A stretch of 33,170 nt of DNA, taken from assembly GCA_947455515.1 (NCBI GenBank), contig CANGOF010000021.1, forward strand, positions 1 to 33,170, written 5' to 3'. The translations under genes and the position numbers were made by a program. Below are positions 10,245-20,248 of this stretch, piece by piece; position 1 is the first letter of the stretch; every line of letters starts with the position of its first letter. Under the pieces are notes generated by a model that saw nothing but the letters and a program-made list of their open reading frames with translations, made no database searches and was not told where the DNA came from. This DNA is from Flavobacteriia bacterium. Its GTDB lineage: Bacteria > Bacteroidota > Bacteroidia > Flavobacteriales_D > Crocinitomicaceae.

Positions 10245-12089
10245 ATGTGTGGAATTGTTGCTTATATCGGAAAAAAAGATGCTTACCCTGTGTTAATTAA
10301 GGGATTGTCACGTTTAGAATACAGAGGATATGATAGTGCAGGTATTGCTTTATTAAATGGGACGGATCTTAATTTATATAAAAAACAAGGTAAAGTTGCA
10401 AATTTAGTAGCTTTTGCAGAAGATAAAAATACGAATGGTCACGTTGGAATTGGTCATACTCGTTGGGCAACACATGGCGAACCAAATGATGTGAATTCTC
10501 ATCCTCACTTTTCAATGGATAAACGTATAGCGGTAATTCATAATGGGATTATTGAAAATTACGATACAATAAAAGAAGAACTGATGAATAGAGGATACGT
10601 TTTTCAAAGTGAGACGGACACGGAGGTGTTGGTTCATTTGATTGATGATATTCAAAAAACAGAAAAGACAAGTTTATTTGAGTCTGTTCGTCAAGCTTTG
10701 CAAAGTGTTGTGGGAGCATATGCCTTAGTAGTAATTTCTATTGACAACCCAACCCAATTAATCGCTGCCAGAAAAAGCAGTCCATTAGTTGTTGGTATAG
10801 GGGAAGATAATGAGTTTTTTTTAGCTTCGGATGCGACACCAATAGTTGAATATACCAATCAAGTGGTTTATTTAAATGATGAAGAAATTGCGGTAGTGGA
10901 TGTGAATGAAGGATTGCGAATTACGAATATCAATAATCAAGAGAAAACGCCTTATATTCAAGAATTAGAGATGCATTTGGAAGCCTTAGAAAAAGGTGGA
11001 TATGAGCATTTTATGATGAAAGAAATTTTTGAACAGCCACGTTCAATTCACGATTGTTTTAGAGGTCGATTAAATGCTGCTGAAGGTTTTGTTCAGCTTG
11101 GTGGTTTGAAAGATTTTGAAAATCGTATGTTGAATGCAAGACGTATTGTGTTTGTTGCTTGTGGAACTTCATGGCATGCTTGTCAAGTAGGAGAGTATCT
11201 TATTGAAGATTTGGCACGAATAAACGTAGAAGTTGAATATGCAAGTGAATTTAGATATAGAAATCCAATCATTGGAGAAGGAGATGTAGTTATTGCAGTT
11301 TCTCAGTCTGGAGAAACAGCAGATACATTAGCAGCATTGGAATTAGCAAAATCAAGAGGTGCTACAATATTCGGTATTTGTAATGTAGTAGGATCTTCGA
11401 TTTCTCGTATAACGGATGCCGGTTCTTATACGCATGCTGGGCCAGAAATAGGGGTAGCCTCTACAAAAGCATTTACTGCCCAGGTAACTGTATTGACTCT
11501 TTTAGCTTTACGATTAGCTTCTAAAAAAGATTCTCTAAGCAGAATTAGATTTAGAACTTTACTTTCAGAATTAGAAGCAATTCCAGAGAAAATAAAGCGA
11601 GTACTGGAGAAAAATGAATTAATAAAAGAAATTGCATCGCATTATAAAGATTCAGCAAATGCATTATATTTAGGAAGAGGAAGCTCATTTCCTGTTGCTT
11701 TAGAAGGTGCTTTGAAATTAAAAGAGATTTCTTACATTCACGCAGAAGGTTATCCAGCTGCAGAAATGAAGCATGGACCAATCGCCTTAATTGATGCTGA
11801 AATGCCTGTTTTTGTTATTGCAACTAAAGGAACATCTTACGAAAAAGTAGTGAGTAATATCCAAGAAGTAAAAGCACGTAAAGGTAAAATTGTGGCTATC
11901 GTTACAGAAGGTGATGTTCAAGTAAAAGGTATGGCTGATCACGTGATTGAAATTCCAGATACAGATGAACATTTAGTTCCATTGTTAGCAACAGTACCAT
12001 TACAATTACTTTCATATCATATTGCAGTTATGAGAGGGTGTAATGTGGACCAACCAAGAAATTTAGCGAAATCGGTTACGGTTGAGTAA
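10245..12089 (+). CDS. glmS: glutamine--fructose-6-phosphate aminotransferase (isomerizing)
   Basis: MCGIVAYIGKKDAYPVLIKGLSRLEYRGYDSAG; SIS domains; C-terminal DQPRNLAKSVTVE. Confidence 0.98.
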   Translation: MCGIVAYIGKKDAYPVLIKGLSRLEYRGYDSAGIALLNGTDLNLYKKQGKVANLVAFAEDKNTNGHVGIGHTRWATHGEPNDVNSHPHFSMDKRIAVIHNGIIENYDTIKEELMNRGYVFQSETDTEVLVHLIDDIQKTEKTSLFESVRQALQSVVGAYALVVISIDNPTQLIAARKSSPLVVGIGEDNEFFLASDATPIVEYTNQVVYLNDEEIAVVDVNEGLRITNINNQEKTPYIQELEMHLEALEKGGYEHFMMKEIFEQPRSIHDCFRGRLNAAEGFVQLGGLKDFENRMLNARRIVFVACGTSWHACQVGEYLIEDLARINVEVEYASEFRYRNPIIGEGDVVIAVSQSGETADTLAALELAKSRGATIFGICNVVGSSISRITDAGSYTHAGPEIGVASTKAFTAQVTVLTLLALRLASKKDSLSRIRFRTLLSELEAIPEKIKRVLEKNELIKEIASHYKDSANALYLGRGSSFPVALEGALKLKEISYIHAEGYPAAEMKHGPIALIDAEMPVFVIATKGTSYEKVVSNIQEVKARKGKIVAIVTEGDVQVKGMADHVIEIPDTDEHLVPLLATVPLQLLSYHIAVMRGCNVDQPRNLAKSVTVE

Positions 12090-12095
12090 AAAAAT

Positions 12096-12150
12096 ATTCT
12101 TAAAACAAAAAAAAGGAGCGAATTTCGCTCCTTTTTTTTGTTTTAAGAAT
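12096..12150. terminator. bidirectional intrinsic terminator between convergent glmS and phaC
   Basis: Perfect 27-nt inverted arms around T12123: ATTCTTAAAACAAAAAAAAGGAGCGAA / TTCGCTCCTTTTTTTTGTTTTAAGAAT. Confidence 0.92.
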
Positions 12151-12164
12151 TTAACTATTTAATA

Positions 12165-13220
12165 TTAATCTCGTTCTTTTAGCCAAGCTGTAACCGCAGG
12201 TGAAAGTTCTTTTTGCGATTTTCCTCCGACAAATACACCAATGTGACCACCCTCAAATTTGTATATCGTTTTGTCTTTTGATCCTACATAATCATTTAGA
12301 GGAATTGTAGCTGATGGCGGTACAAGATGATCGTGAACTGCGTATATATTTAATAAAGGCATTGTTAAATTTTTAAGATCTACTTCTTTATCTCCAATTC
12401 TTAATTCTCCTTTAATTAATTTGTTGTTTTGGTATAAGTCTTCCATAAATTGTAAAAAACATGCTCCAGCTTGGTCTGGACTTTCTGAAATCCACTTCTC
12501 CATACGTAGAAAGTTTAACAATTTAGTTTTGTCTTCCATGGAATTTATTAAACCTGTTGACTTTTGAATTTTCATCATCGGTTTTAACATATCAAAACCA
12601 TCATTTAAAAAGGATCCTGGTATTAAACCATCGTACCCATCCACTAATTTTTTGAAATCCATGTCCTTACTCCATCTGAATAATAACCCTTCATTAATGG
12701 AAAAGTCAATAGGGGTAACATGTGTAACTAAATTTTTTACTTTCTCAGGATGTATAGATGAATAGATAACACTAAACGTACCACCTTGACAAATGCTCAA
12801 AATATTGATTTTATCTACCTTATTTTCTTTTCTAACTACATCCACACAATTATTTATATATCCATTTATATAGTCATCCATTGTAAGAAACTTATCCATT
12901 TTTGTAGGTTTTCCCCAATCAATTAGGTATACATCCAATCCAGCTTCCAACAAGTTTTTAATGTAACTTCTGTCAGGTTGTAAATCTAACATTTGGTAAG
13001 TGTTTACTAAAGCATAAACTATCAAAACAGGAGTTTTGTAGGTTGATTTTGAGTCTCTATTATAACGATATAGTGTTAATTTGTCCTCATTATATACAAC
13101 ATGTTTTGGAGTAGAAGCGATATCTACTTCGTTTATTTCAGCAAGATTTTCAAATCCTTTTAGAAACTTTGTGGTAGTTGTAGTTAATTCTTGTAGTAAA
13201 TTGGCTTGATTTAAGTCCAT
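12165..13220 (-). CDS. phaC: class III poly(R)-hydroxyalkanoate synthase subunit PhaC
   Basis: 351 aa; VYLIDWGKP; nucleophile elbow LSICQGG (Cys144); VHDHLVPP Asp; GGHIGVFVGG His. Confidence 0.93.
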   Translation of the reverse strand: MDLNQANLLQELTTTTTKFLKGFENLAEINEVDIASTPKHVVYNEDKLTLYRYNRDSKSTYKTPVLIVYALVNTYQMLDLQPDRSYIKNLLEAGLDVYLIDWGKPTKMDKFLTMDDYINGYINNCVDVVRKENKVDKINILSICQGGTFSVIYSSIHPEKVKNLVTHVTPIDFSINEGLLFRWSKDMDFKKLVDGYDGLIPGSFLNDGFDMLKPMMKIQKSTGLINSMEDKTKLLNFLRMEKWISESPDQAGACFLQFMEDLYQNNKLIKGELRIGDKEVDLKNLTMPLLNIYAVHDHLVPPSATIPLNDYVGSKDKTIYKFEGGHIGVFVGGKSQKELSPAVTAWLKERD

Positions 13221-13235
13221 ATAAAAAAATGGGAT

Positions 13236-13265
13236 AAAAAAAGGGAAATCTAAATTTCCCTTTTT
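13236..13265 (-). terminator. intrinsic terminator/attenuator-like hairpin between phaE and phaC
   Basis: Minus strand: AAAAAGGGAAAT-TTAG-ATTTCCCTTTTT followed by further T; 12-bp stem, 4-nt loop. Confidence 0.75.
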
Positions 13266-13284
13266 ATTAATTTATATTAATGAT

Positions 13285-14643
13285 TTAGACAGTCGCTGTT
13301 TTACGAGTTGTCGTTTTTGCAGGAGCTGGTTTTTCAATAGAAGTTAATTTGCCTTCTAAAGTTTTTACCGTTTTCTTCAAATCGTGAATTGTTTGGTATA
13401 ATTCATTCATTTCAGATTTTACAACTAATGGTAAAGCCTCAATTTTGTTTTCAAATTGAAATTCTAAATTTTTTTTAATATCCAAAGACAAAGTCGTTAA
13501 TTCAGCTTTTAATTTTGAAAATTCATCTGTAGCGAATAGTTGTGTGTAATGTTTTTCATTGATAGCAACCCATTCGTTGAAAAACGGTTGAAAAGTAGAA
13601 GTAAACGTTGTATCTTTTGCTTTTTCAGTTAATAGATTTGCAGCTTCTTTAGAAACATTTTGACCAGTTGTATACAATAAGTACTGCATTTCTGCTAATT
13701 TCATACTATAAACAGAAGCTTTGTCAATGGAAGCTATCGCTAATTCAACATTTTCTTTTTCTTTAGAATCAGTCACTAATTTCATTAATGGAGCAAAAGA
13801 TTCAGTAAAAGAATGTTGTGTGTTTTTAAATGCGTCTGTCAACTTTCCAAAATCACCTGAGAACAATGTTGGAAATTTCTCTGTAAATGTACTCCAATAA
13901 GCTTGAAAATCTTTATTTGTGTTTTTTTGTGTTGTAAAGAAATCTTGCACAAATTTTGTATTGTTTTCTAACAAACTATTTAAGTTGTTTGCAGGAAAAA
14001 ATTGTTGGAATAATTCTTCAGTAATTTTTTTGTACTGAGAAGGATCAAACATGTTTTTTAGAGTATCAGCAGAGAAATTGTTTGATTTGAATGCTGTGAA
14101 GAATGGTTGGTAAAATTCTTGAAGCTTAAAATACAAATTATTCGTGTTGAAAGCATTTGTAAATAAGTCGGATTTAAACATGTTTTTAGGCATAGTTTTG
14201 TTTAGCGACTCAAACGTAGAATTTAATGTGTTTGTCCAAGATTCAAATAAGGTATTCCAAGTAGAATTCATATTTAAAATGTTAGCACTTGTTTCTGTAG
14301 CTGGTTTTCCAAAACTGGATAACGAATTGTACATGTTTAAATTAAAATCAGTCGCTTTTTTGATTGCATCTAATTGTGAAGTGTAAATATTTTTATAAAA
14401 ATCTTCTGTTTTTTCAGTTGTAAAAGCGTCCTTAAATGGAACGTCTATTTTACTATCTGAGGCGATATTTTTAAAAATAGATAGCTGAGATTCCCACCAA
14501 TTTTTATACACTTCTGAAGATTTTTCAAAAGCATTTTCTGATTTCAAAGCTTCTTGCAATTTATTAGCTGTTTCAACAAAAGAATTAATTGCTTTTGTTT
14601 GGGTTTCAACTACTGTATCTAATATTTCTTTGGTATTATTCAT
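13285..14643 (-). CDS. phaE: class III PHA synthase PhaE-like/phasin-like subunit (ORF track starts at 14688; MNNTKEIL at 14643 is a likely start)
   Basis: Helical, coiled protein; C-terminal region YSMKLAEMQYLLYTTGQ..FNEWVAINEKHYTQLFATDEFSKLKAELT..SEMNELYQTIHDLKKTVKTLEGKL resembles PhaE; adjacent to class III phaC. Confidence 0.75.
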   Translation of the reverse strand: MNNTKEILDTVVETQTKAINSFVETANKLQEALKSENAFEKSSEVYKNWWESQLSIFKNIASDSKIDVPFKDAFTTEKTEDFYKNIYTSQLDAIKKATDFNLNMYNSLSSFGKPATETSANILNMNSTWNTLFESWTNTLNSTFESLNKTMPKNMFKSDLFTNAFNTNNLYFKLQEFYQPFFTAFKSNNFSADTLKNMFDPSQYKKITEELFQQFFPANNLNSLLENNTKFVQDFFTTQKNTNKDFQAYWSTFTEKFPTLFSGDFGKLTDAFKNTQHSFTESFAPLMKLVTDSKEKENVELAIASIDKASVYSMKLAEMQYLLYTTGQNVSKEAANLLTEKAKDTTFTSTFQPFFNEWVAINEKHYTQLFATDEFSKLKAELTTLSLDIKKNLEFQFENKIEALPLVVKSEMNELYQTIHDLKKTVKTLEGKLTSIEKPAPAKTTTRKTATV

Positions 14644-14745
14644 GTTTTTTATAACTTTTAATTTTATTGCATTACAAATTTCAAGCAATTTATTGGATTT
14701 ACCAAATAAAAATATAGTATTTAGAAAAAATGTTCATAACATAAT

Positions 14746-15489
14746 TTACATGTATAATCCACCATTGATATTTAAACATTGTCCAGTCATATAAGTTGCT
14801 TTAATTAAATAGGATACGCCATTTGCAATATCCTCTGTTTCTCCCAGTTTTGCAGCTGGAATTTTCGCTTTTATACCATCTAATACTTGGATTGGCATTT
14901 CTGCAACCATTTCAGTATTTATAAATCCGGGACAGATACAGTTTACTGTTACTCCATGTTTTGCTGTTTCAAGTGCTAAAGATTTTGAAAATCCAATCAA
15001 CCCAGCTTTTGCAGCAGCATAATTTGTTTGTCCAAAACCGCCTGTTTGACCAATGACCGAGCTAATGTTTATTATTCTACCATACTTTTGTTCAATCATG
15101 TGTGGGATAGCTAATTGACATGTATTAAACACGCTGGATAAATTAGTATCTATCACTTCACTCCACTCCGAAAGTTGCATTTTCCGAAAGGATTTATCTC
15201 TTGTAATACCAGCGTTATTAATTAAAATATCAACGGGGCCAAAATGCTTTATAATTTTATCAAATAACCCTTCGCATTCATTTTTATTCGCAATATTTGA
15301 CTGAATAGCAATGGCGTTACCTCCATTTGAAATAATCTTATTTACTATTTTATTTGCCTCTTCATTATTGCGATTGTAATTTACGACCACATTAAAATTC
15401 GAGTTGCCAAGTTCTAATGAAATGGCAGCACCTATACCTCTCGATCCTCCGGTTACAAGAACGGTTTTTTTTGTCGTTGGATTATTCAT
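14746..15489 (-). CDS. phaB: SDR family acetoacetyl-CoA reductase (PhaB-like)
   Basis: TGGSRGIG, NNAGITRD, YAAAKAG motifs; ends in GGLYM as in PhaB; upstream of phaE-phaC. Confidence 0.85.
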   Translation of the reverse strand: MNNPTTKKTVLVTGGSRGIGAAISLELGNSNFNVVVNYNRNNEEANKIVNKIISNGGNAIAIQSNIANKNECEGLFDKIIKHFGPVDILINNAGITRDKSFRKMQLSEWSEVIDTNLSSVFNTCQLAIPHMIEQKYGRIINISSVIGQTGGFGQTNYAAAKAGLIGFSKSLALETAKHGVTVNCICPGFINTEMVAEMPIQVLDGIKAKIPAAKLGETEDIANGVSYLIKATYMTGQCLNINGGLYM

Positions 15490-15618
15490 AGTGCTTTTTA
15501 TTAATTAATGAAACATTAGTTTTGTGTCCCTAAAAATTACGTATAAATATTAAAATAGAAGGGTTATAATTCTAATTTTTTTATTTGTATCTTTCGGTTT
15601 TGTATAAGGAATAAATTA

Positions 15619-16029
15619 ATGAATAATCAGATGGAACTTAATCAAAAATATCACCACGAATTTTTATTTACTCAACAAGATGTGATAGATTTCGCTCGGG
15701 TTACTGGAGATAATAATCCTGTGCATTTGGATGAGGATTTTGCCGCTAAAACTATATTTAAAACACGAGTGATGCATGGTATGTTGGGCGCATGTATTTT
15801 TTCAAAAGTATTTGGGACATTATTCCCAGGTGATGGCACTATTTATTTGAGCCAAACGGTTAATTTTTTAAAACCAATGTATGTGGATACAACGTATATA
15901 GCTCAATTCGAAGTATTAGAAATACAAGATAAAAATCGCGCTAAAATCTTGACTAACATCGTAAATTCGGAAGGAAAAAAAATAGTTGTTGGTGAGGCAA
16001 TAATAATGAATATTGAAAAAATCGCATAA
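15619..16029 (+). CDS. phaJ: MaoC-like (R)-specific enoyl-CoA hydratase (PhaJ-like)
   Basis: FARVTGDNNPVHLDEDFA hydratase 2 motif; VMHGMLGACIFSKVFG. Confidence 0.82.
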   Translation: MNNQMELNQKYHHEFLFTQQDVIDFARVTGDNNPVHLDEDFAAKTIFKTRVMHGMLGACIFSKVFGTLFPGDGTIYLSQTVNFLKPMYVDTTYIAQFEVLEIQDKNRAKILTNIVNSEGKKIVVGEAIIMNIEKIA

Positions 16030-16823
16030 TGTTTATTAAAACGGAAGATAATAAGTCATTGTTTGTTGAGGTTCAAGGAAATTTGACTTCCTCTAAAACG
16101 ATTGTTTTTTTAAATGGCTTATCTCAATCTACCATTGCTTGGGGATTTGTAGTTCCGTATTTTGCTTTAGACTTTAAAATTGTTTTACTTGATTTTATTT
16201 TTCAAGGGGATTCAGATAAAACAGGAGAGGTTAGGGATTTTGATCAACACGCTAAGGATGTGATTTCAGTAATTGATGCATTAAAAATTGATAAAGCATA
16301 TTTTGTTGGACTGTCTTACGGAAGTATTGTTGCGCAACATATAGGAGTTAATTATACAAATCGTATCGAAAAGTTAATTTTGCTTTCCACATTTGCGCAT
16401 AAAACACCATATTATGAAGCGATTGAATTGTCGTGGAGAAGAGCGCTGGATTTTGGCGGGTATTCTTTAATGTTAGACGTTATGCTTCCTTTTGTTTTAA
16501 GTAATTCTTATTTTGCCCAACCAATAATTCCAATTGAAATAATGAAGTCTGCAAGAAAAGACTTGGTAGATGCAACTTCGTTACATAAACTAATGGATGC
16601 GACTCATGCCAGAAAAGATTATAGAGAGAATCTCAAAAGTATAACCGCTGCAACTTTAGTCATTCATGGTAGACAAGATACTTTGTTTAGTGTTGATTTA
16701 GGTAAAGCGGTTGCGGATAATATTCCTGATAGTGAGTTTGTAATAATTGAGAACGCTGGACATACATTAAATTTAGAAGGCGTAGAATTTGTTGTTGAAT
16801 TGATTATGAAATTTATAAATTAA
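16029..16823 (+). CDS. alpha/beta hydrolase
   Basis: GLSYGS nucleophile elbow, HGRQDTLF Asp, AGHTLNLE His; ATG overlaps phaJ TAA by 1 nt (TAATG). Confidence 0.88.
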   Translation: MFIKTEDNKSLFVEVQGNLTSSKTIVFLNGLSQSTIAWGFVVPYFALDFKIVLLDFIFQGDSDKTGEVRDFDQHAKDVISVIDALKIDKAYFVGLSYGSIVAQHIGVNYTNRIEKLILLSTFAHKTPYYEAIELSWRRALDFGGYSLMLDVMLPFVLSNSYFAQPIIPIEIMKSARKDLVDATSLHKLMDATHARKDYRENLKSITAATLVIHGRQDTLFSVDLGKAVADNIPDSEFVIIENAGHTLNLEGVEFVVELIMKFIN

Positions 16824-16826
16824 GAA

Positions 16827-17594
16827 ATGAAGGTTGCTTTAATAACTGGTAGTACCAGTGGAATCGGTTTAGGTATTGCGAAAGAATTTGCAAGAGAAGG
16901 ATATGCGATTGCTTTTAATGGTTTAGAAGCGAATGGAGCTGAAATTGCGGATCAAGTAGGAAAAGAATTTGGAGTTAAAACTCGTTTTTTTGGAGCAAAT
17001 CTTCAAGATCCGAATCAAATTATAGGAATGGTTGAAGAGGCAGAAGGCTTGTTTGGTACTATTGATATTTTAGTTAATAATGCAGGAATTCAATTTGTTT
17101 CTCCAATTGAAGATTTTCCTATAGAAAAATGGAATGCAATCATGGATATTAATTTAAATTCTGTTTTTCACGCGTCAAAAAGTGTTTGGAAAGGTATGAA
17201 AAACAGAAGATTTGGAAGGATTATTAATATTGCTTCTGCACATGGTTTAGTAGCTTCTCCTTTTAAATCTGCTTATGTTACTGCGAAACATGGCGTGGTG
17301 GGTATGACAAAAACACTCGCCTTAGAAGGTGCTGCCTTTGGTATTACGGTTAATGCTATTTGTCCAGGGTATGTGAAAACTCCATTAGTAGAAAAACAAA
17401 TTAAAGAACAGGCATTAGCCCACGGTATACCGGAGGATGAAGTAATTTCTAAAATTATGTTAGAAAAACATGCAGTCAAAGAATTTGTAACCGTAGAAGC
17501 ATTGGGTAAATTAGCAGTTTTCCTTGCATCTGAATCAGGAAGTTTAATTACTGGAATTGCTCTACCAGTAGATGGTGGATGGACAGCTCAATAA
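16827..17594 (+). CDS. bdhA: 3-hydroxybutyrate dehydrogenase (SDR)
   Basis: TGSTSGIGLGIA; NNAGIQFVSPIEDFP; ASAHGLVASPFKSAYVTAKHG; NAICPGYVKTPLVEKQI. Confidence 0.93.
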   Translation: MKVALITGSTSGIGLGIAKEFAREGYAIAFNGLEANGAEIADQVGKEFGVKTRFFGANLQDPNQIIGMVEEAEGLFGTIDILVNNAGIQFVSPIEDFPIEKWNAIMDINLNSVFHASKSVWKGMKNRRFGRIINIASAHGLVASPFKSAYVTAKHGVVGMTKTLALEGAAFGITVNAICPGYVKTPLVEKQIKEQALAHGIPEDEVISKIMLEKHAVKEFVTVEALGKLAVFLASESGSLITGIALPVDGGWTAQ

Positions 17595-17600
17595 TAAAAT

Positions 17601-18626
17601 ATGAAAGAAAAACACGTTGGAGTAGCATTGCAAGGCGGAGGGGCACATGGTGCGTTCACTTGGGGTGTATTGGATCGTTTGTTAGAAGTAGATGAGATTG
17701 TTGCTGATGGAATGGTAGGAACAAGTGCTGGAGCAATAAATGCTGTAGTATGTGCTTATGGACTTCATATTGGCGGTAAATCAAAGGCAAAAGAGTTGTT
17801 GGATCGCTTATGGAAAGATATTGCTCTATCAGGAAATGTAATGTTCAAACCTTCATTTATGGATTCACTTTTTTCAAGTGGGGATATGCATAACACACCT
17901 GGATATATGATGTTTAATGCAATGACACAGTTTTTGTCGCCTTATCAAATGAATCCAGCGAATATCAACCCGTTAAGAGAAATACTAAATAATTTAGTAG
18001 ATTTTGAAGAACTTAGACACTACAATAAAAAAAGACTATTTGTATGCGCTACGAATGTAAAAACGAATCGAGCAAGGGTTTTTTCCAATGAGGAAATGAC
18101 AGTAGAAGCTGTTTTGGCATCTGCATGTTTACCTTATTTATTTCAAGCGGTTGAAATAGATGGAGAACATTATTGGGATGGTGGATATATGGGGAACCCA
18201 CCTTTATTTCCATTGATAGAAAATACAGATATTCACGATTTATTATTAGTTAAAATTAATTCTATTAATATTGAGGAAGTTCCAACGTCAGCCAGAGATA
18301 TACAAGATAGAATTACTGAAATTTGTTTCAATAGTAGCTTGATTAATGAAATGAAATTAATTCATTACCGAAATGAATTGGTTAGAAAAGGAGTGGATGT
18401 ACAAGACGGAAAACTTTCACGTGAAATTTTTGTTCATTCCATATCAGCGCATGAAGCTTTAGGTCATATGAAACATTCGAGTAAAATGAATACTTCTTGG
18501 GAGTTTTTATTAGATCTAAAACAAAAAGGTCGAGTTTATGCAGAGAAATGGTTACAAGAAGAATATCATAAGGTTGGTGTGAAGTCGACCTTTGATATTG
18601 AAAAACATTTCTTTGATAAGAATTAA
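17601..18626 (+). CDS. patatin-like phospholipase family protein
   Basis: GGGAHGAF oxyanion motif, GTSAG serine elbow, DGGYMGNPP Asp motif. Confidence 0.92.
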   Translation: MKEKHVGVALQGGGAHGAFTWGVLDRLLEVDEIVADGMVGTSAGAINAVVCAYGLHIGGKSKAKELLDRLWKDIALSGNVMFKPSFMDSLFSSGDMHNTPGYMMFNAMTQFLSPYQMNPANINPLREILNNLVDFEELRHYNKKRLFVCATNVKTNRARVFSNEEMTVEAVLASACLPYLFQAVEIDGEHYWDGGYMGNPPLFPLIENTDIHDLLLVKINSINIEEVPTSARDIQDRITEICFNSSLINEMKLIHYRNELVRKGVDVQDGKLSREIFVHSISAHEALGHMKHSSKMNTSWEFLLDLKQKGRVYAEKWLQEEYHKVGVKSTFDIEKHFFDKN

Positions 18627-18636
18627 TGGAATAGGA

Positions 18637-19311
18637 ATGAGAAAAACGCTTAGAAATCTTTTAAAATTGATTTTGTTTCTAATTGTATTTATTGTTTTAT
18701 ATTTTGCAACAGCATTTACTTTTTCTCGTATTTCTGTGAATGGGGATTTATCTAAAAACGGACCTATTTCTATTTATATAAAATCAAATGGTGTGCATAC
18801 GGATATAGTGGTTCCTGTAAAAACAAAACAAATTAATTGGTCGAAAATTTTTCCATATAAAAACACAAAAGATAAAGATTCAAGTTCCCAATATTTAGCT
18901 ATGGGTTGGGGAGATAAAGGTTTTTATTTGAATACACCAACATGGGGAGATTTGACTGCTAAAACTGCTATTAAAGCTATGTTCGGTTTGAGCACATCTG
19001 CTTTACATACAACATATTTAGATTCAATAGTGTTATCCTCAACTTGTAAAAAGATTACAATGACCGAGGGGGAATACAAATTATTAATTCGATATATCCA
19101 ACGTTCAATTTTGAGAGGAAAAACCAAAAAAGCGATATTTATTCCAACGAATGCTGTGTATGGCACTAATGATGCATTTTATGAAGCCTCTGGTAGTTAC
19201 CATATGTATAGTACTTGTAATACCTGGACAAATCGTGCATTAAAATTTTCTAATAAGAAAGCTTGTTTATGGACTCCCTTTGATTCTGGTATTTTAAAAC
19301 AATATCCATAA
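18637..19311 (+). CDS. TIGR02117/DUF2459 family protein, membrane-anchored
   Basis: ORF track starts at 18592; ATG at 18637 (MRKTLRNLL) fits better and follows the patatin stop; SNGVHTDIVVPV...MGWGDKGFY...YSTCNTWTNRALK motifs. Confidence 0.78.
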   Translation: MRKTLRNLLKLILFLIVFIVLYFATAFTFSRISVNGDLSKNGPISIYIKSNGVHTDIVVPVKTKQINWSKIFPYKNTKDKDSSSQYLAMGWGDKGFYLNTPTWGDLTAKTAIKAMFGLSTSALHTTYLDSIVLSSTCKKITMTEGEYKLLIRYIQRSILRGKTKKAIFIPTNAVYGTNDAFYEASGSYHMYSTCNTWTNRALKFSNKKACLWTPFDSGILKQYP

Positions 19312-19387
19312 CAGGGTTGACCAAACAATATTTTTAATATCTTAGTTGATTAGTCTAAATAGACTTCAAAAAATTAAAGTAAAACAC

Positions 19388-20248
19388 ATGAAAGGAATCA
19401 TTTTAGCAGGAGGTTCGGGTACACGTTTACACCCATTGACATTGGCGATTAGTAAGCAGTTGATGCCAATTTATGATAAACCAATGATTTATTACCCTTT
19501 ATCCGTATTGATGGGGGCAGGGATAAAAGAAATATTAATTATTTCGACACCTCACGACTTACCTCACTTTAAGCGTTTGTTAGGTGATGGAAGTAAACTT
19601 GGATGTACTTTTGAGTATGCGGAACAACCTGAGCCTAATGGTTTAGCTCAAGCATTTGTTATTGGTGAAAAATTTATAGGTTCAGATAGCGTTGCTCTTA
19701 TTTTAGGAGATAATATTTTCTATGGCGCTGGAATGCATGAATTATTGAGAGAAAACTTAAATCCAGATGGAGGGATAGTTTATGCTTATCATGTTAGTGA
19801 TCCAGAGAGATATGGAGTTGTTGAGTTTGATGAAAATATGAATGCACTTTCCATTGAAGAAAAACCCGAGCAGCCACGTTCTAATTATGCGGTCCCAGGT
19901 TTGTACTTCTATGATAACTCGGTAATAGAAATTGCAAAAGCGTTAAAACCTTCCCCAAGAGGTGAATATGAAATAACGGATGTGAATTCTGAATATTTAC
20001 GTCGTAAGAAATTAAAAGTATCTATGCTAAGTAGAGGAACTGCTTGGTTAGATACCGGGACTTTCCCATCCTTAATGCAAGCGGGTCAATTTGTACAAGT
20101 TATCGAAGAGCGTCAAGCCTTAAAAATTGGATGCATTGAAGAAATCGCTTTTAGAAATGGATTTATTTCGAAAGAACAACTAATTGAAATTGCTAAACCT
20201 TTAGTGAAAAGTGGATATGGTACGTATTTAATGACTTTAGTGTCCTAA
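19388..20248 (+). CDS. rfbA: glucose-1-phosphate thymidylyltransferase
   Basis: [42 protein letters not shown] track start 19346 is TTG, ATG is at 19388. Confidence 0.96.

Follow-up and report, generated by a model that had tools for sequence, protein, structure and literature searches.

The contig CANGOF010000021.1 (GenBank assembly GCA_947455515.1) of a Flavobacteriia bacterium from the family Crocinitomicaceae carries genes for polyhydroxyalkanoate (PHA) synthesis beside genes that appear suited to polymer breakdown, and raises the question of whether such bacteria encode a complete cycle of polyhydroxybutyrate (PHB) storage and re-use, and whether these genes were acquired. We analysed the whole stretch of 33,170 nucleotides, here called the window (33% GC; source assembly 2.9 Mb, 86.5% complete). 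Judged from its sequence, the locus is very probably a two-armed PHB cycle module, in which a synthesis operon and a mobilisation operon diverge from one intergenic region. A sequence-only reading had proposed eight open reading frames (ORFs), a 129-nt divergent region and a pairing of synthesis genes with genes for breakdown and re-use. All eight ORFs lie where it had placed them, the phaB/phaJ gap at 15490-15618 measures 129 nt, and the pairing is supported. The elements of the locus are:

12165..13220, minus strand: phaC, catalytic subunit of a class III PHA synthase, 351 aa (TIGR01836 and catalytic triad)
13238..13265, minus strand: intrinsic-terminator-like hairpin, putative attenuator; stem AAAAAGGGAAAT/ATTTCCCTTTTT, then a T-run
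13285..14643, minus strand: phaE, second subunit of the class III synthase, 452 aa (PF09712; conserved ATG start)
14746..15489, minus strand: phaB, short-chain dehydrogenase/reductase (SDR) of acetoacetyl-CoA reductase type (NF009464; active-site region)
15490..15618, no strand: divergent intergenic region, 129 nt, presumed promoters of both arms (read directly)
15619..16029, plus strand: phaJ, MaoC-domain (R)-specific enoyl-CoA hydratase (MaoC domain; Asp-His dyad)
16029..16823, plus strand: alpha/beta hydrolase (ABH), candidate PHB depolymerase or oligomer hydrolase (active-site motif; gene context)
16827..17594, plus strand: bdhA, (R)-3-hydroxybutyrate dehydrogenase (TIGR01963)
17601..18626, plus strand: patatin-like hydrolase, candidate intracellular PHB depolymerase, PhaZh1-like (PF01734; motifs; bdhA adjacency)
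18637-19311, plus strand: DUF2459 protein, start more likely ATG 18637

The synthase had been proposed to be of class III, and this assignment holds. In a profile search PhaC scores 452.5 bits against TIGR01836 (cut-off 365.3); its catalytic residues C144, D297 and H326 are invariant across 12 Bacteroidota PhaC proteins, the active-site box reads S-I-C-Q-G-G, and the adjoining phaE encodes a protein positive for PF09712 (PHA_synth_III_E; about 71.4 bits, cut-off 25.7). The most likely start codon of phaE is the conserved ATG at 14643, not the TTG at 14688, and a conserved C-terminal region of the protein centres on SE-(x)3-LY-x-TI-x-DLKK. A search of solved structures returned no relative of PhaE, and its AlphaFold model, all helical with a mean predicted local distance difference test score (pLDDT) of 44, was unusable. 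PhaB, an SDR of acetoacetyl-CoA/3-oxoacyl reductase type, passes NF009464 and displays in its active-site region FGQTNYAAAK the Tyr/Lys pair present in the SDRs of the locus. The absence of a beta-ketothiolase from the window was confirmed; three thiolases are encoded elsewhere in the genome, a biosynthetic-type thiolase (L001) scores 462 bits against TIGR01930, and both subunits (A/B) of succinyl-CoA:3-ketoacid CoA-transferase (SCOT) are likewise encoded outside the window. Neither PhaR, which had been reported missing, nor any other PHA regulator was recognised among the scanned window ORFs, some window ORFs lying outside the scan.

On the plus strand, the nearest solved proteins to PhaJ are the (R)-specific enoyl-CoA hydratases 5cpg and 1iq6, and its hydratase 2 motif DNNPVHLD holds the dyad D31/H36; in A. 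caviae PhaJ the catalytic dyad is Asp31/His36 (PMC4823750). BdhA reaches 347 bits against TIGR01963 (cut-off 307), and its best solved matches, 3v2h, 5yss and 1wmb, are all 3-hydroxybutyrate (3HB) dehydrogenases. The patatin scores 92.6 bits against PF01734 and contains the motifs GGG, GTSAG (S42) and DGG (D193); it combines features expected of a candidate PhaZh1-like enzyme, namely a patatin domain, GxSxG, DGG/DGA and a gene adjoining bdhA. It is also the most conserved module protein within the genus (mean 88%) and one of two patatins found in the source genome by a limited search that did not include the canonical PhaZ families. The ABH, with S96 in GLSYG, D217 and H245 as active-site residues, reaches the cut-off of none of the NCBIfam models shown; ABH genes adjoin bdhA or PHA genes in several other Bacteroidota lineages.

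Known systems offer partial counterparts to both arms. A two-subunit synthase with phaE upstream of phaC, a Cys-Asp-His triad and matches above the TIGR01836 and PF09712 cut-offs is shared with PhaEC of the Allochromatium vinosum type and of haloarchaea. Unlike these known class III systems, however, the window has a PhaE of about 450 aa that falls below TIGR01834, a PhaC box that begins with S instead of G, a terminator hairpin between phaE and phaC, and phaB in the same operon. Haloferax mediterranei has a bdhA-phaZh1 pair and a phaJ1(maoC)-phaR-phaP-phaE-phaC cluster (PMC7137286, PMC4823750); in the pair, bdhA precedes phaZh1, which encodes a depolymerase of patatin type (PMC7137286). The window resembles it in a bdhA directly upstream of a patatin with a GTSxG box, a phaJ near phaEC and a class III synthase (PMC7137286, PMC4823750), and differs in uniting the genes in one divergent seven-gene module, in its extra ABH and in that neither phaR nor phaP was recognised in the scanned ORFs. 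A plasmid-borne haloarchaeal patatin of PhaZh1 type is 33% identical to that of the window; the three haloarchaeal plasmid patatins inspected all have an upstream SDR whose best match is to 3HB dehydrogenase models, below their cut-offs. The bdhA-patatin adjacency also occurs on Rhizobium plasmids, where a 3HB dehydrogenase gene is followed by a patatin 45-47% identical over its full length; unlike in the window, the Rhizobium stretches inspected contain no PHA synthase gene.

From this inventory the following cycle may be proposed. A thiolase encoded elsewhere would provide acetoacetyl-CoA, which PhaB would reduce to (R)-3-hydroxybutyryl-CoA, and the PhaC-PhaE synthase, from the minus-strand operon phaB-phaE-phaC, would polymerise this monomer to PHB. 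The plus-strand operon phaJ-ABH-bdhA-patatin would mobilise the store: the patatin, the ABH or both would hydrolyse polymer and oligomers to 3-hydroxybutyrate, BdhA would oxidise this to acetoacetate, and SCOT together with thiolase would return it as acetyl-CoA. PhaJ, working in either direction, would interconvert (R)-3-hydroxybutyryl-CoA and crotonyl-CoA and form the link to beta-oxidation. The sequence-only reading had assigned PhaJ to monomer supply, which may still apply; phaJ heads the strand of breakdown genes, however, and because PhaJ1 of the Haloferax PHA cluster acts in mobilisation (PMC4823750), PhaJ may, by analogy, have a part in mobilisation here in addition to supply.

The module, laid out as phaC-phaE-phaB diverging from phaJ-ABH-bdhA-patatin, behaves as a unit of seven genes. 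PhaC is present in 12 of the 13 genomes of the genus, the remaining genome being only 74% complete, and every congener with an unbroken contig has all seven genes in identical order. Conservation of gene order in relatives, as anticipated, was thus borne out by neighbourhood comparison among these congeners, and extends to two bins with unreliable titles, L075 and L076, which carry all seven genes at 58-80% identity in other surroundings. Public bins titled Chitinophaga pinensis, Actinomyces viscosus and Chryseobacterium gleum (L074, L075 and L076, respectively) carry the module, and at least for L074 the title looks wrong. The divergent phaB/phaJ layout is retained in every module copy that has both genes; we found no conserved operator in the gap, whose sequence is kept only among close relatives, and a sigma-70 scan found 29 sites versus 37 expected.

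Several unrelated chromosomal sites harbour the module. In a genome of the same genus (G246) it lies away from glmS and adjoins LuxE-like and TauE genes, and genes resembling these two neighbours also follow phaC in L075. A genome from another order (G742) contains the first six of the seven genes before its contig ends. Its PhaC is 83% identical to that of the window, comparable to deeper members of the genus (81-91%), whereas its GlmS is only 73% identical, compared with 81% or more in congeners; because PhaC is closer than this core protein, the module has probably moved between lineages within the Bacteroidota, as far as sequence comparison can tell. A tree of concatenated module proteins places G742 among the genus lineages without resolution, and the glmS block of G742 lies elsewhere in that genome without the module. 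Misbinning was considered as the origin of this copy and found unsupported: the LptF-like gene flanking it is only about 42% identical to that of the window's genus (38-41% to other genera of that family) and thus hardly closer to it, which makes it improbable that this contig is DNA of the genus assigned to the wrong bin.

How far the trait extends was assessed in a phylum sample of 396 genomes, a class sample of 395 genomes drawn evenly by family, and an order-level set of 249 genomes. The earlier view that PHA synthesis is not typical of the phylum is correct within the order, where PhaC exceeds the class III cut-off in 4 of 249 genomes, all from the window's genus, but less so across the evenly sampled class, where a PHA synthase match of some kind occurs in 71 of 395 genomes. 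Above the class III cut-off are 38/395 genomes of the class sample and 8/396 of the phylum sample; many of the remaining class matches are frames of 550-640 aa, the size of class I enzymes. BdhA, present in 46 of the 395 class genomes, coincides with a PHA synthase in 44 of these 46, versus 27 of the 349 without BdhA (two-by-two table 44, 27, 2, 322; Fisher p 5e-37, overstated since the genomes are related). About 10 of the 28 non-window BdhA loci of this sample, in several families, show bdhA next to a patatin gene. In the PhaC tree, a clade of 65 rows, Bacteroidota except for a few bins whose titles are unreliable (SH-aLRT 92, by a quick method), stands beside Nitrospirota and Pseudomonadota, and phaJ divergent from phaE-phaC recurs across it. 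A phage origin of PhaC was rejected, the matches being only distant (25-29%).

The sequence-only reading had overlooked a hairpin between phaE and phaC. Its GGGAAA...TTTCCC stem and T-run are found in 14 of the 14 module copies compared, including that of G742, and a hairpin occurs in none of the 14 phaB-phaE gaps that served as controls. Three of 10 consensus pairs are changed on both sides with pairing kept, in an imperfect alignment. Over all loci, 28 of 78 phaE-phaC gaps, several of them duplicates or close relatives, contain terminator-like hairpins, versus 0.2 expected by mononucleotide shuffling, and in some distant Bacteroidota the hairpin sequences are unrelated. We infer that the hairpin causes partial termination: a share of transcripts would end there, and PhaE would be made in excess over PhaC. 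No earlier report of such a hairpin was found in the open-access literature, and an Rfam search of 12000-19500 gave zero matches. The class III phaE-phaC gaps of Nitrospirota and Gallionellaceae/Methylophilaceae (L104-L123) are, unlike many in Bacteroidota, about 11-32 nt long and lack a hairpin. A gene of about 600 aa separates phaE from phaC in several Bacteroidota (L077:8121-9926, L078:7721-9538, L079:8141-9955, L081:8137-9945, L088:3500-5287), with no Pfam match in the two copies scanned.

The hairpin might instead stabilise an mRNA 3' end or close the transcription unit, with phaC served by its own promoter. A strong hairpin with a full T-run in all copies would suit such a role; the distance of about 17-25 nt from the T-run to the phaC start in the window is too short for a usual promoter unless this overlaps the hairpin or lies within phaE, and we regard the proposal as rather unlikely. 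As to the origin of the cluster, recent import from Pseudomonadota or Nitrospirota is highly improbable. The nearest PhaC proteins outside the Bacteroidota, from Nitrospirota and Betaproteobacteria, are about 60% identical, but the PhaC of the window sits deep inside the large Bacteroidota clade, which disfavours a recent outside source, and the base composition of the cluster resembles the rest of the window. On this phylogenetic evidence PhaC is a long-standing resident of the Bacteroidota; the earlier suggestion that the module may be acquired fails for recent entry into the phylum and stands for movement within it.

Two further proposals concern what the enzymes do. The polymer could be of PHA type, a C4-C6 copolymer fed mainly by beta-oxidation intermediates through PhaJ, with phaB secondary. 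PhaJ is indeed closest to short-chain (R)-hydratases, a thiolase adjoining a FadB-like gene is present, and of the whole layout the part found most widely in the Bacteroidota is a phaJ that diverges from phaE-phaC, in many cases with phaB absent. Here, however, phaB lies within the synthase operon, phaJ is grouped, operon-like, with bdhA and the hydrolase genes, and BdhA implies a C4 product, making this route an unlikely principal source. Alternatively, the patatin might have nothing to do with PHB and be a membrane phospholipase, or a lipase of defence type, that happens to adjoin bdhA. This appears distinctly improbable: a weak similarity to CBASS phospholipase models (41 bits, cut-off 200) speaks for it, but no cyclase or other CBASS gene was seen nearby, bdhA-patatin pairs are found repeatedly, in several families of Bacteroidota as well as in Rhizobium and haloarchaea, and a haloarchaeal patatin beside bdhA hydrolyses PHA granules in vitro (PMC7137286).

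Against the PHB cycle that we favour stand several points. It is drawn from genes and sequence alone, from which we infer enzyme activities, polymer accumulation, the direction of flux through PhaJ, operon structure and the effect of the hairpin. PhaB scores 286.8 bits against TIGR01829, just under the cut-off of 302.1. PhaE passes PF09712 as PhaC passes TIGR01836, but reaches only 54 bits in the narrower TIGR01834 (cut-off 154.95); because all 15 Bacteroidota PhaE proteins tested match both PhaE models at E < 0.001 (best TIGR01834 E = 1.8e-17), it reads as a divergent PhaE branch, with class III membership resting on PhaC and PF09712. No depolymerase model exists for the patatin itself, patatins are functionally diverse, several related plasmid patatins do not adjoin bdhA, and in Haloferax intracellular mobilisation was not significantly affected when phaZh1 was deleted (PMC4823750); the roles of patatin and ABH could also be swapped. 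Finally, the transfer between orders is drawn from a single fragmented genome bin, G742.

Downstream of the patatin gene the window continues with DUF2459, rmlA and a prenyl synthase gene. DUF2459 had been counted as part of the PHA unit, which was not borne out: it is missing at the module end in L061, L063, L075 and L076, lies on a separate contig in G246, and is encoded by 92 of the 249 order genomes, almost all of these 92 lacking a PHA synthase. We therefore rejected it as a module member, since it does not travel with the module and is common in PHA-less genomes. The protein, widespread in the order, comprises an N-terminal helix and a mixed alpha/beta domain with a conserved NGVHTD motif; its predicted model (pLDDT 83) gave no convincing match among solved structures (best E 0.08). 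In two congeners the patatin gene is followed instead by one for a large membrane protein, of the MMPL family where scanned (L061:15852-18494, L289:36-2660). At the other end, a strong, 20-pair palindromic terminator-like hairpin occupies 12100-12146 between the converging glmS and phaC.

According to a 2020 study of PHA-accumulating sludge, PHA accumulation had not been reported for any member of the Bacteroidetes (PMC7048717); in a large survey of genomes, class III PhaC was listed for only 13 Bacteroidetes and class I PhaC for only 12 (PMC8312272). That the trait is under-described, as had been suspected, is supported, although reports outside the open-access literature may exist. More tentatively, with somewhat less than even confidence, we propose that the locus represents a mobile PHB-cycle module of the Bacteroidota's own, in which divergent synthesis and patatin-based breakdown operons are inherited together and a conserved terminator between the two cistrons would fix the PhaE:PhaC stoichiometry; this control of granule formation, so far undescribed, would recur throughout the phylum with hairpins of unrelated sequence. 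Should the polymer be made, storage of carbon by uncultured Bacteroidota would have been overlooked, the genomic case for the patatin as a depolymerase would be strengthened, and the hairpin between phaE and phaC would provide a directly testable rule for the ratio of synthase subunits.

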